Assembly (NCBI GenBank): GCA_946544235.1
Contig: CAMNMC010000112.1
Coordinates: forward strand, 1-58,600
From: an uncultured Lachnospiraceae bacterium
Lineage (GTDB): Bacteria; Bacillota; Clostridia; Lachnospirales; Lachnospiraceae
Direction: 5' to 3'
Length of the DNA stretch: 58,600 bases
Shown here: positions 40,665 to 45,451 of the stretch, one piece after another
Position numbering within the stretch: position 1 is the first letter of the stretch
Layout of the letters: each line of letters starts with the position of its first letter
Made by a program: the position numbers and the translations under genes
Notes under the pieces: generated by a model
What the model was told of the DNA's origin: nothing
The model's input: only the letters and a program-made list of their open reading frames with translations
Database searches by the model: none

Positions 40665-42110
40665 ATGGCAGTCAGATATTCGGGATTAAGAGAATCAAGA
40701 CAAAACAGATATAACGATCTGGGCGGCAGCAGTGTAGATATCGCTGACAGATTTGAAAAGAAATGTATAAAGAAAGCAGAGAGAAGCTTCGAGCAGGGAC
40801 TTCAGTGCCAGGAGATCAACAGCCTGCAGGCTTTGGTTTCCATAGAGGATTCACTTCTGATAGTGCATTCTCCTCAGGGATGTCTCGGATGCGTATCGGC
40901 CATGCAGGATCTCTTCAGAGTCGGTCAGATACACAGAGGCGTTAAGCACGTTAGAAACGCGAGGCTCCTTTGTACGAATCTTGATAAGAAGAGCGTTATC
41001 TTCGGAGGCGAGAAGAAGCTCCGTGATACGGTTAAGCTTGGTATAGAGAGGTATTCGCCGAGGATAGTATATGTATTTACCTCATGTGCATCAGGTATCA
41101 TCGGTGATGATATTGATGCAATATGCGGTGATCTTCAGGATGAATATCCGGAGGTGGTAATGGTACCGGTTCACTGCGAGGGCTTTAAATCCAAGATATG
41201 TGCATCAGGCTTTGATGCGGCGCTGATAGCAATCAATAAATATATTATAAAAGGACAGAAGCAGGAGACAGAGCCTGATCTGATAAACCTGTTCGCACCG
41301 ACCTCAATCAGCTACGCTGACCAGAGGGAGATGGAACGAATGCTTGAGAACCTCGGCATGAGGGCTAATTATATTCCTTTCTACAGCAATCTGGACAAGC
41401 TGAGAAACATAACCGCAGCGACGGCTTCGACCTCTATCTGTAAGGTTTTCGCAGATGAGTTCATGAAGGAGCTGGAGGCGGATTACGGTATTCCTTACAG
41501 TCACACAGTCATGCCGATAGGAATCAGAAATACGGATAAATGGTACAGAGGCATCGCGAAGATCGTCGGTAAGGAGGAAGAAGCCGAGGAGATCATCCGA
41601 AAGGAACACGAGAGAATCGATCCTCTGGTAAATGAGATAAGAGAGAGGCTGCAGGGCAAGAGAGTCTTCATCTGCGGAGGAACAGGAAGAAGCTTTGCTG
41701 CAGCGGCTCTTATAGATGATTTTGGAATGAAGCTGGTAGGACTTGAAACACCGACCTACGACAGCGATGCACAGGATGATATTGAATATCTCAACAAGAT
41801 CCATGGTGATTTTGTGGTTGATATAGCAAACATGCTCCCATTTGAGCAGGTCAACCTGCTGAACAGGCTCAGACCGGACTGCTTCATTGGCGTTGCGGAC
41901 TGGGCCGCGAAGCTGGGACTTCCGACCACACACGTACTTGACGGCAAGAGGCCGACCATGGGTTATGACGGACTGATATATCTCGGAAACAAGATAGCAG
42001 ATCAGTTTGAAAATCCGGGCTTCAATGTGAAGCTTGCGGCTCACAGAAAGCTTCCTTATAAGGACAGCTGGTATCAGGAGGATGCATTCAAATATATAGT
42101 TGAAAGATAA
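40665..42110 (+). CDS. Nitrogenase-like NifD-type subunit (putative cofactor-bearing subunit)
   Basis: The 481-residue protein matches the nitrogenase component 1 family. Equivalents of the three P-cluster cysteines are seen at C48, C73 (HSPQGC) and C141 (SCASGIIGDDI), and VIFGGEKKL and VPVHCEGF are kept. C259 stands exactly 15 residues before YGIPY, as Cys275 of NifD does before YGIPW. H423 lies ten residues before GYDG, as His442 does before GFDG. These ligate the FeMo cofactor in nitrogenase. By eye, Gln191 and His195 are replaced by C179 and F183, arguing against ordinary N2 reduction. It is first of four genes and keeps the features of a cofactor subunit rather than NifE. Confidence 0.9.
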   Translation: MAVRYSGLRESRQNRYNDLGGSSVDIADRFEKKCIKKAERSFEQGLQCQEINSLQALVSIEDSLLIVHSPQGCLGCVSAMQDLFRVGQIHRGVKHVRNARLLCTNLDKKSVIFGGEKKLRDTVKLGIERYSPRIVYVFTSCASGIIGDDIDAICGDLQDEYPEVVMVPVHCEGFKSKICASGFDAALIAINKYIIKGQKQETEPDLINLFAPTSISYADQREMERMLENLGMRANYIPFYSNLDKLRNITAATASTSICKVFADEFMKELEADYGIPYSHTVMPIGIRNTDKWYRGIAKIVGKEEEAEEIIRKEHERIDPLVNEIRERLQGKRVFICGGTGRSFAAAALIDDFGMKLVGLETPTYDSDAQDDIEYLNKIHGDFVVDIANMLPFEQVNLLNRLRPDCFIGVADWAAKLGLPTTHVLDGKRPTMGYDGLIYLGNKIADQFENPGFNVKLAAHRKLPYKDSWYQEDAFKYIVER

Positions 42111-42153
42111 TGAATGCGTGAGCAGATAATATCATTTAATAAAGAGGTAGAAT

Positions 42154-43437
42154 ATGTCAGCAATAACAGAAAATCCGCGTGGAGGATGTGTTCTCGCGGG
42201 AATAAATTCAAATCTTTTGGCCATCGGAGGTGTCTGCCCCGTATTTCATTCGGGACCGGGCTGTTGCCTTCAGACCTCTGCCAGTGAGCAGGGACAGTCG
42301 GGCGGAAAGAATGCAGGTTTCGTATCAGGATCGTCAATTCCCTGCTCGAACATGCTCGAGAAGGAGGTTGTATTTGGAGGAACCAACAAGCTCAGAACCA
42401 CCGTTCAGGGTGCAGTCGATATCATAGATGCAAAAACCTTCTTCATCCTGACAGGATGTACGGCAGGTATAATCGGAGATGATGTGGAGAGCATCGCTCA
42501 GGAGTTCCGCGACAAGGGTCATGAGGTTTATGCAATTGAGACTCCGGGCTTCCACGGCGACAGTAATCTCGGCTATGAGGTTGTCTGGAATACATTCATC
42601 GATCAGGTTATAGAACCTGCTGAGAGAGATGAAAAGCTTGTAAATATATTTGGAATCGTTCCTTATCACGATCCGTACTGGTACGGAAATCTCGAGGAGA
42701 TAAGGAGAATACTCGAGAGACTCGGACTTAGGGTAAATACATTTTACACCAATCATCAGACTATCGATGATGTTAAGAAGAGTTCCGGTGCGGCACTTAA
42801 TATAGTTATCAATCCATGGCTCTTCGAGAAGCCGGCCGAGAAATATAAAGAGAAGTTTGGGGTTCCTTGGATCAAATATCCGGGACTTCCGGTCGGAGCA
42901 ACCGATACAACCGAATTTGTTCGCCAGGTTGCGGAGGCTCTTTCACTTGATAAGGAGCTCGTTGAGAAGGTTATCTGGGAGGAAGAGGATTACGTTTACA
43001 GCTTCCTCGAGCAGGCCATCGGAAGACTTTCATGGAAGAGGTTCGGAGTTATCGGCGATGCCAATTCGGCAATCGGTATTACCAGATATCTGGCAAATGA
43101 TTACAGCTTCACACCTAAGTTCACGATAGTTTCTGAAACAATCTACAGAGGACATGATGTACAGCTGATCAAGGACCGCATAACAAATCTTGAATATGCA
43201 AAAGCACCTGAGGTTGTATTTGCAGCTGATCAGTACAGAATAAATGAAACAATATATAAGCACGATGATGTATCACTCATCGTCGGTTCCGCAAATGACA
43301 GAGAGGCGGCGTCCTACAAGGATGTGCAGTTCTTTGAAGCAACATTTCCGGTAACCACAAGGCTCTTCTTCAACAGAGCCATAGCAGGCTACAGAGGAAG
43401 CCTGACACTTACAGAGGATCTTTACGATAATATTTAG
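42154..43437 (+). CDS. Nitrogenase-like NifK-type subunit
   Basis: The 427-residue partner subunit lacks the long N-terminal extension of NifK. Cysteines C12, C37 (HSGPGC) and C102 (GCTAGIIGDD) match NifK C70, C95 and C153, with the same spacing for the first two, so a P-cluster-like [8Fe-7S] or [4Fe-4S] centre at the subunit boundary is likely. EVVFGGTNKL and the ETPGFHGDSNLGYE stretch are family marks. RBS AGAGG precedes the start, 43 bp after the D-like gene. Confidence 0.9.
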   Translation: MSAITENPRGGCVLAGINSNLLAIGGVCPVFHSGPGCCLQTSASEQGQSGGKNAGFVSGSSIPCSNMLEKEVVFGGTNKLRTTVQGAVDIIDAKTFFILTGCTAGIIGDDVESIAQEFRDKGHEVYAIETPGFHGDSNLGYEVVWNTFIDQVIEPAERDEKLVNIFGIVPYHDPYWYGNLEEIRRILERLGLRVNTFYTNHQTIDDVKKSSGAALNIVINPWLFEKPAEKYKEKFGVPWIKYPGLPVGATDTTEFVRQVAEALSLDKELVEKVIWEEEDYVYSFLEQAIGRLSWKRFGVIGDANSAIGITRYLANDYSFTPKFTIVSETIYRGHDVQLIKDRITNLEYAKAPEVVFAADQYRINETIYKHDDVSLIVGSANDREAASYKDVQFFEATFPVTTRLFFNRAIAGYRGSLTLTEDLYDNI

Positions 43438-43522
43438 TAGCATGAAGCGAAGCGGAATGCGGTGTTAAGAGTCCGGGGGACGCTTGTTCAACACGGACCG
43501 TAGTGGAACGGAGACTATTCGC

Positions 43523-43537
43523 ACTGTTCGGAACAGT
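43523..43537. other. Short dyad between K-like and NifB-like genes
   Basis: ACTGTTC-G-GAACAGT is a perfect 7-bp-arm dyad 28 bp before the NifB-like start. The gap 43438-43565 also begins with a GCGAAGCG-type fragment shared with other spacers. Confidence 0.55.
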
Positions 43538-44435: not shown

Positions 44436-44442
44436 GATGTAA

Positions 44443-44578
44443 CTGCTGCTCATTCGTAGCGGACATTGATCAAAGAGACTGCTGCTCATCTGCGGCAGAT
44501 AAATATAAAAACAACCTGCTGCTCATCGGCAGATAATTGATATAAAACCTGCTACTCATCTGTAACAGGCTGACAGAG
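44443..44578. repeat. Four imperfect direct repeats in the NifB-NifH spacer
   Basis: The word CTGCTGCTCAT(C) or CTGCTACTCATC occurs at 44443, 44479, 44516 and 44549, so the period is 33-37 bp. The middle copies also share a GGCAGATAA-TATAAAA stretch and can each form a small CTGC...GCAG hairpin. Confidence 0.85.
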
Positions 44579-44602
44579 ATTATGAAAGAAGAGGACAAAC
44601 AA

Positions 44603-45451
44603 ATGGGAGAAATAAGACAGATAGCAATTTATGGAAAGGGTGGTATCGGTAAATCCACCACAACACAGAATCTTACGGCAGGACTCGTTGAGCATGGCAA
44701 GAAGGTCATGGTCGTAGGATGCGATCCGAAAGCGGATTCGACAAGACTTCTTCTCGGCGGACTTCACCAGAAGACGGTTCTTGATACTATACGTGATGAA
44801 GGAGAAGGCTTCGAGCTTGACCACATCCTGAAGGAAGGCTTCGGCGGAGTAAGATGCGTTGAGTCCGGCGGACCTGAACCGGGTGTCGGCTGCGCAGGAC
44901 GAGGAATAATCACATCTATAAATACACTTGAGAACCTAGGCGCTTATACCGACGATCTTGATTTCGTATTTTATGATGTTCTTGGTGACGTTGTCTGCGG
45001 AGGCTTCGCAATGCCAATCAGAGAGGGCAAAGCCAAGGAAATATATATAGTTGCTTCAGGCGAGATGATGGCTCTCTATGCCGCTAACAATATCAGTAAG
45101 GGTATTCAGAGATATGCACGTTCAGGTGGCGTAAGACTGGGCGGAATTATCTGCAACAGCCGTAATGTTGACCACGAGCACGAGCTCCTCAGAGCCTTTT
45201 CGGCTGAACTCGGAACCCAGCTTCTTTACTTTGTGCCTCGTGACAACATAGTTCAGAGAGCAGAGATCAATAAGAAGACAGTTATTCAGTTTGATCCGAA
45301 GTCAAATCAGGCAAAGGAATACAGAAATCTTGCGGAGACGGTTATCAACAACACAAACTTCGTTGTTCCGACACCAATGACTCAGGACAGGCTGGAAGAG
45401 ATACTTTATGATTACGGCTTCGCTGAGAATCCGGATAATTACAATATCTAA
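44603..45451 (+). CDS. NifH-like iron protein (reductase component)
   Basis: Start 44603 follows AGAGGA by seven bases; the ATG at 44582 has no good site. The 282-residue protein is very close to true NifH: AIYGKGGIGKSTTTQN (Walker A), GCDPKADSTRLLL, C96 in GVGCAGRGI and C131 in GDVVCGGFAMPIREGKA for the bridging [4Fe-4S], and R99, the ADP-ribosylation site of some NifH. It would deliver electrons to the D-K protein with ATP hydrolysis. Closeness to NifH over BchL/CfbC is by eye. Confidence 0.95.
   Translation: MGEIRQIAIYGKGGIGKSTTTQNLTAGLVEHGKKVMVVGCDPKADSTRLLLGGLHQKTVLDTIRDEGEGFELDHILKEGFGGVRCVESGGPEPGVGCAGRGIITSINTLENLGAYTDDLDFVFYDVLGDVVCGGFAMPIREGKAKEIYIVASGEMMALYAANNISKGIQRYARSGGVRLGGIICNSRNVDHEHELLRAFSAELGTQLLYFVPRDNIVQRAEINKKTVIQFDPKSNQAKEYRNLAETVINNTNFVVPTPMTQDRLEEILYDYGFAENPDNYNI

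Follow-up and report, generated by a model that had tools for sequence, protein, structure and literature searches.

A 58,600-nucleotide stretch of DNA from an uncultured Lachnospiraceae bacterium (contig CAMNMC010000112.1 of assembly GCA_946544235.1; the whole stretch is referred to below as the window) carries four adjacent genes on the forward strand, nflD, nflK, nflB and nflH, that encode a nitrogenase-like system, Nfl. This system is real and widespread, occurs in many rumen and gut bacteria, and is a sister-type system to methylthio-alkane reductase (Mar) rather than a Mar itself, while its genomic context strongly suggests a role in sulfur metabolism. Judging from sequence, we consider it on balance probable that NflBHDK is an ATP-driven two-component reductase that scavenges sulfur by cleaving C-S bonds, with its cluster held differently from that of Mar. 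The first-pass annotation of the window had recognised the four genes and a probable Lachnospiraceae host, and both points agree with our analysis, as the closest named relatives by D are Eubacterium ruminantium FB3002 (96%) and Lachnospiraceae bacterium C6A11 (95%).

We examined the best 80 of 188 scan-confirmed relatives (the 80 loci, many of them short) and 17 host genomes, comprising the window's own and 16 picked by hand from these loci. The P-cluster cysteines C48, C73 and C141 of D are kept in 80/80 loci, and C12, C37 and C102 of K in all 78 rows taken as K, two short rows having been dropped and a few of those remaining being paralogs with identity down to ~25%; the earlier observation of all three such cysteines in each subunit is confirmed. 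Likewise, Cys259 and His423 of D are invariant across the 80 loci. Cys259 is the equivalent of Mar Cys270 and NifD Cys275, hhalign (profile alignment) sets His423 on the nitrogenase ligand His442, and the interval from His423 to the next Gly-Tyr-Asp-Gly spans nine residues, as does that from NifD His442 to its motif in the Rhizobium row. From these positions we regard Cys259, and probably His423, as putative cluster ligands. Nitrogenase Val70, Gln191 and His195 are all replaced, with Cys179 in the Gln191 column and Phe183 in the His195 column; NifD columns 442, 191, 195 and 70 were assigned from known motifs together with published papers.

In a tree of D (47 rows) the Nif proteins fell on one side (support 100/100) and the window D grouped with Nfl, within which a clade of 18 rows (100/100) united Mar with D', the D protein of a second pair, D'K', found near D in 26/80 loci. 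The window clade, formed of 11 rows plus locus L086 (100/99), lay outside this Mar + D' clade and had a six-row clade as an unsure sister (83/82). Using approximately unbiased (AU) tests, for which clades were named only after inspection of the tree, holding the window clade together with Mar was rejected (p 0.0002), and holding it together with Nif was rejected narrowly (p 0.049). A position inside Mo-nitrogenase, which the first-pass annotation had named as speaking against its proposal, was thus not found in this tree, which was built without CfbCD. The Mar structure has its cluster ligated by Cys270 and His429, and its description presents Arg428-His429 as a possible hallmark (PMC12552129). 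These loop I columns are a gap in 12/12 window-clade rows, while in the Mar + D' clade Arg is present in 18/18 rows and Arg-His in 16/18, the two exceptions, L099 and L100, having Arg-Ala. All rows of the six-row clade carry His but no Arg (6/6). The Mar Trp195 and His375 columns hold Cys179 and Thr in the window clade (His and Tyr in L086). The first-pass annotation had matched the gene set by content with MarBHDK; membership of Mar is not supported, as the Mar active-site residues are absent, the grouping with Mar is rejected, H is closer to NifH, and the B-H-D-K set is common to Isr and Nfa too (PMC11423573).

Other forms of D were observed among the loci. L099 and L100 form a distinct Nfl D clade with loop I Arg-Ala instead of Arg-His and a NifH-type H, and L102 (7365-8768, reverse strand) has a very divergent D, beside K and H genes, without two P-cluster cysteines and without the cofactor cysteine. 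The D of L093 (genome G294; 5902-7503, forward strand) is 58% identical to Rhodospirillum rubrum MarD and has Arg-His, Trp195 and His375, and is by these residues a probable true Mar within the same family.

Among solved structures, D was closest to MarD (E 1e-71) and K to MarK (5e-65), while H was closer to NifH than to MarH and cleared the NifH equivalog cut-off (456.9 versus 394.35 bits), in line with its earlier description as near-canonical. B matched the radical S-adenosylmethionine (SAM) domain and the NifB model (7.5e-78, 262 bits), the latter below the cut-off of 343.65 and with a model length of 441 against 289 residues in B. Fold comparison placed NifEN, DPOR and nitrogenases at least 5.4 Z units under Mar entry 9fmg, with the second Mar entry, 9d9u (36.0), just 1.1 above NifEN, and fold was therefore not used for placement. 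A single close H (84-100%) and a single close B (58-100%) were present per genome in 17/17 tested genomes, two of which (G008 and G009) have an additional H at 47-50%; among the 80 loci, the counts of B and H cover 24, since elsewhere these genes fall outside the fetched flanks.

The first pass had also remarked on the absence of NifEN and NifV from the window. The window's own assembly (82.38% complete) holds no PF00148 match beyond D and K, the isolate genomes of FB3002 (L003) and C6A11 (L004) have two each with no nifEN found, and the other 14 tested genomes have 4 to 9. nifE was above cut-off in 0/17 tested genomes with this D and exceeded it in both added nif-bearing control genomes. For nifV the own genome gave only sub-cut-off matches (best 142.6 versus 462.9 bits) in a search with no positive control, and 14/14 control genomes also matched below cut-off, with none above. 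With no further PF00148 match in the own assembly and nifE above cut-off in none of the 17 genomes, a canonical Mo-nitrogenase with nifEN elsewhere was rejected. Identity with CfbCD, a homomeric D without K, was rejected because a K gene adjoins D (the tree being without CfbD).

The sulfur amino acid surroundings described in the first pass were borne out, with the genes from cysK to the dehydrogenase forming one forward-strand run upstream of D (Table 1) that includes a cystathionine enzyme, a PatB C-S lyase and a cystine-type ATP-binding cassette (ABC) transporter. Among the 80 loci, D neighbours comprised CysK (30), CymR (32), PatB (19), a cystathionine enzyme (16), a TauC-type permease (22), an SsuA-type binding protein (20) and a NifX-like protein (51). 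At least one of the first six of these families was present in 32/36 loci of at least 18 kb versus 0/32 control stretches (20 kb long in 30 cases, 18.6 and 14.4 kb in the other two) placed around MinD/ParA-like genes of 14 tested genomes, an arbitrary rather than random choice; each family was named from one representative and built on the 80 loci themselves, which match it by construction, and controls needed at least 40% identity. Gene order around D differs between Lachnospiraceae and Treponema, and the sulfur link is therefore not one frozen operon. A sulfur island also surrounds D in two (L054 and L079) of the three Butyrivibrio genomes tested. No sulfur riboswitch or T-box was found beside D/K at gathering score in the 14 scanned of the 80 loci, and in the window the RNA scan detected only a SAM riboswitch ahead of metK together with a Clostridiales-1 RNA, for which L003-L006 gave no match at gathering score.

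Table 1. Features of the window around the nfl genes.
Feature	Position	Strand	Remarks
cysK, cysteine synthase A	28065..29000	+	
LysR-type regulator	29094..30008	+	
Cystathionine gamma-lyase/synthase family enzyme	30117..31259	+	
PatB-family C-S lyase	31291..32589	+	443.5 bits, cut-off 340
NifX/NafY-like domain protein	32737..33339	+	PF02579; predicted cofactor carrier
Iron-type alcohol dehydrogenase family protein	33468..34598	+	
HisC-like aminotransferase	34480..35790	+	start codon probably lies further downstream
ABC ATPase, cystine/polar amino acid type	35783..36562	+	
ABC substrate-binding protein, cystine type	36636..37538	+	SBP_bac_3
ABC permease, cystine type	37590..38276	+	
ABC permease	38296..39015	+	
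Ldh_2-family dehydrogenase	39201..40271	+	best model L-sulfolactate dehydrogenase, 250.7, below cut-off 500
Clostridiales-1 RNA	40269-40433	-	RF01699, 100.3 bits; antisense, between dehydrogenase gene and nflD
nflD	40665..42110	+	481 aa; catalytic alpha-like subunit, PF00148 8.1e-78
nflK	42154..43437	+	427 aa; beta-like subunit, PF00148 3e-68
nflB	43566..44435	+	289 aa; NifB-like radical SAM protein, predicted 8Fe cluster maker
nflH	44582..45451	+	289 aa; NifH-type iron protein, C104 and C139
SAM riboswitch	48236-48367		precedes metK, 2.8 kb past nflH
metK	48428-49780		behind SAM riboswitch

A sulfur island also lies on the 382-kb Treponema saccharophilum plasmid pTS2, typed as non-mobilizable (L106). 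The island combines cysK, B, NifX and H with an ABC system and with two D/K pairs, each of which falls on the Mar + D' side of the tree, outside the window clade.

Host sulfur metabolism points in the same direction as the neighbours. The siroheme sulfite/nitrite reductase family PF01077 was not detected in 16/17 host genomes, the exception being Butyrivibrio MC2021 (G010), and ATP-sulfurylase was above cut-off in 0/17, with one weak partial match. Across 299 same-family genomes, PF01077 occurred in 1/12 with a window-clade D versus 145/287 others (p 0.006), and in 6/36 with any close Nfl D versus 140/263 others (p 3e-5), although these Fisher values overstate certainty as the genomes share ancestry and are not independent, and the set of 12 includes G284, placed from a fragment (82% over residues 345-479). 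This link was absent for genomes with weaker matches only (11/19 and 11/18). As the hosts mostly lack PF01077, a product of sulfide or thiol is more likely than sulfite, unless the enzyme itself carries sulfite further. Of the dedicated C-S reductase proposed in the first pass, the sulfur or C-S role is supported by the controlled neighbour counts, the family position and the hosts without sulfite reductase, while Mar membership is not.

In the mechanism that we favour, the substrate would be a small imported organosulfur compound, used by anaerobes mostly without sulfite reductase. Electrons would travel from a dimer of the NifH-type H to a P-cluster between D and K, predicted from the observed cysteines, and would then reach an [Fe8S9C]-type cluster, presumably assembled by B with neither homocitrate nor a NifEN scaffold and held through the conserved Cys259 and probably His423. 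The freed sulfide or thiol may feed the adjacent CysK, cystathionine and C-S lyase enzymes. A bolder proposal, which we judge unlikely, is that Nfl, with a histidine at the nitrogenase position, represents a third mode of 8Fe carbide cluster binding and an extant link connecting Mar with nitrogenase, reducing sulfur oxyanions or sulfonates fully to sulfide and replacing siroheme sulfite reductase in rumen anaerobes.

Several results weigh against a C-S-cleaving Nfl. MAFFT sets His423 two columns away from His442, so that its ligand role is putative. None of the six sulfur families was found in 4/36 long loci, the wider sulfur list was absent from 18/80 loci (many of them short), and CysK, PatB, the cystathionine enzyme and CymR were all absent from 30/80. 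The window's flanks hold a cystine-type ABC system and a LysR regulator, but neither CymR nor a sulfonate-type ABC system. Furthermore, the loci in which the neighbour families were counted are those that served to define them, the genomes are not independent, and PF01077 is present in two genomes of the clade, G010 and G284.

One competing explanation is methylthio-alkane reductase proper, acting on the Mar substrates 2-methylthioethanol and dimethyl sulfide. It would share the gene set, account for MarD and MarK as nearest solved relatives and suit the sulfide- and thiol-using enzymes nearby, but the loss of Arg428-His429, Trp195 and His375, the AU result and the NifH-like H make it rather unlikely; on residues and tree, Mar membership was rejected. 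A sulfonate-desulfonating enzyme akin to isethionate reductase (Isr), from which sulfite is released, could be read from the TauC-type and SsuA-type transporter genes near D in 22/80 and 20/80 loci. We nonetheless think it highly improbable, because IsrD keeps just one P-cluster cysteine out of three and lacks Cys275 (PMC11423573), whereas all of these are kept here, and because sulfite would be of little use to hosts of which 16/17 show no PF01077 sulfite reductase. Identity with Isr itself was rejected on the cysteine pattern.

A true N2-fixing nitrogenase that works without NifEN also has to be weighed. Such an enzyme has been shown in Roseiflexus, where nifEN proves not strictly necessary, and is reported for Endomicrobium. 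The NifH-type H, the hhalign pairing of Cys259 and His423 with NifD Cys275 and His442 and the narrow rejection of a grouping with Nif are consistent with it, and the authors of a human-gut study found no grounds for excluding N2 fixation in such clostridia and measured 15N2 uptake in human faeces (PMC4995403). However, Roseiflexus NifD retains V70, Q191 and H195 (PMC11573651), which are replaced here; no NifV was above cut-off (with no positive control), the neighbours are sulfur genes, and D groups with Nfl and not Nif. We consider N2 fixation by this system very unlikely.

The sulfur-scavenging reading of Nfl bears on the use of nifH as a marker of nitrogen fixation. A close NifH (near-full-length, at least 72% identity to the window H) was found in 43/299 same-family genomes; left out was G295, with a 109-residue NifH piece at 74%, no nifE above cut-off and an Nfl D match at 1.5e-66. 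nifE was above cut-off in 9/43, two of which (G115 and G181) also have Nfl D, and not in 34/43, of which 29 are at least 90% complete and 33 show a D-type match with an E-value no higher than 1e-40 (that of G167 being partial, 1e-27). Each of the Butyrivibrio genomes G010, G013 and G014 has a single close NifH, with nifE not above cut-off in any of the three. The human-gut study places Lachnospira/Butyrivibrio-type NifH in Cluster III and reads it as a sign of nitrogen fixers, with 15N2 uptake measured and Klebsiella and Clostridiales as candidates (PMC4995403), while a rumen study that counts by NifH finds nitrogenases in 23% of its 501 genomes and cites negligible N2 fixation (PMC6776011). 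From the organisms named, we infer that the NifH of these surveys is Nfl H. If true, gut Cluster III nifH of the Lachnospira/Butyrivibrio type would mostly signal sulfur scavenging and not N2 fixation, and the paradox of NifH counts against negligible fixation would be explained, as 34 of the 43 genomes lack nifE and 33 of these have Nfl D. The system also bears on the origin of nitrogenase, as a likely sulfur enzyme is here predicted to contain a cofactor of the nitrogenase type and has a histidine close to the nitrogenase position.

Parts of this picture have precedents. Cys275-bearing Group IV proteins were tied to cysteine synthase and O-acetylhomoserine enzymes by Dos Santos 2012 (PMC3464626), a 2026 spirochete paper describes a group-IV nifDK with a cysteine synthase (PMC13067680), and the histidine of such NifD, kept in part of them, is already remarked in PMC4995403. 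Worked-out sulfur cases are Isr (PMC11423573) and Mar. Among the titles and abstract openings found by literature search, none mentioned the window clade's sulfur role or its link to missing sulfite reductase.

Compared with Mo-nitrogenase NifHDK, Nfl shares the H protein, equivalents of Cys275 and probably His442 and a NifB-like protein, but differs in the replaced V70, Q191 and H195, in NifEN not being found, in NifV below cut-off and probably in its clade. With IsrBHDK of Rhodobacter capsulatus it has in common the B-H-D-K set, sulfur assimilation and, at some loci, sulfonate-type transporters, whereas IsrD retains a single P-cluster cysteine and is without the cofactor cysteine, and IsrB is described as BciD-like (PMC11423573) in contrast to the NifB-like B here. 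Group IV Nfa of Endomicrobium proavitum, compared by published description, likewise has a B-H-D-K set, no NifEN and the cysteines kept, but is reported to be without the cofactor histidine that Nfl keeps (PMC4995403). The D'K' pair has the same sulfur neighbours as D/K, and both pairs are served by a single close H and a single close B in the tested genomes, yet its place in the tree is with Mar, and 5/5 of its rows retain Arg-His, Trp195 and His375. Mar itself (MarBHDK of Rhodospirillum rubrum, PDB 9fmg/9d9u) resembles Nfl in its gene set without EN, its six P-cluster cysteines, the Cys270 equivalent, fold and a sulfur-related role, while Nfl lacks loop I Arg428-His429, Trp195 and His375, forms a separate clade, has His423 near the nitrogenase His442 site and has an H closer to NifH.

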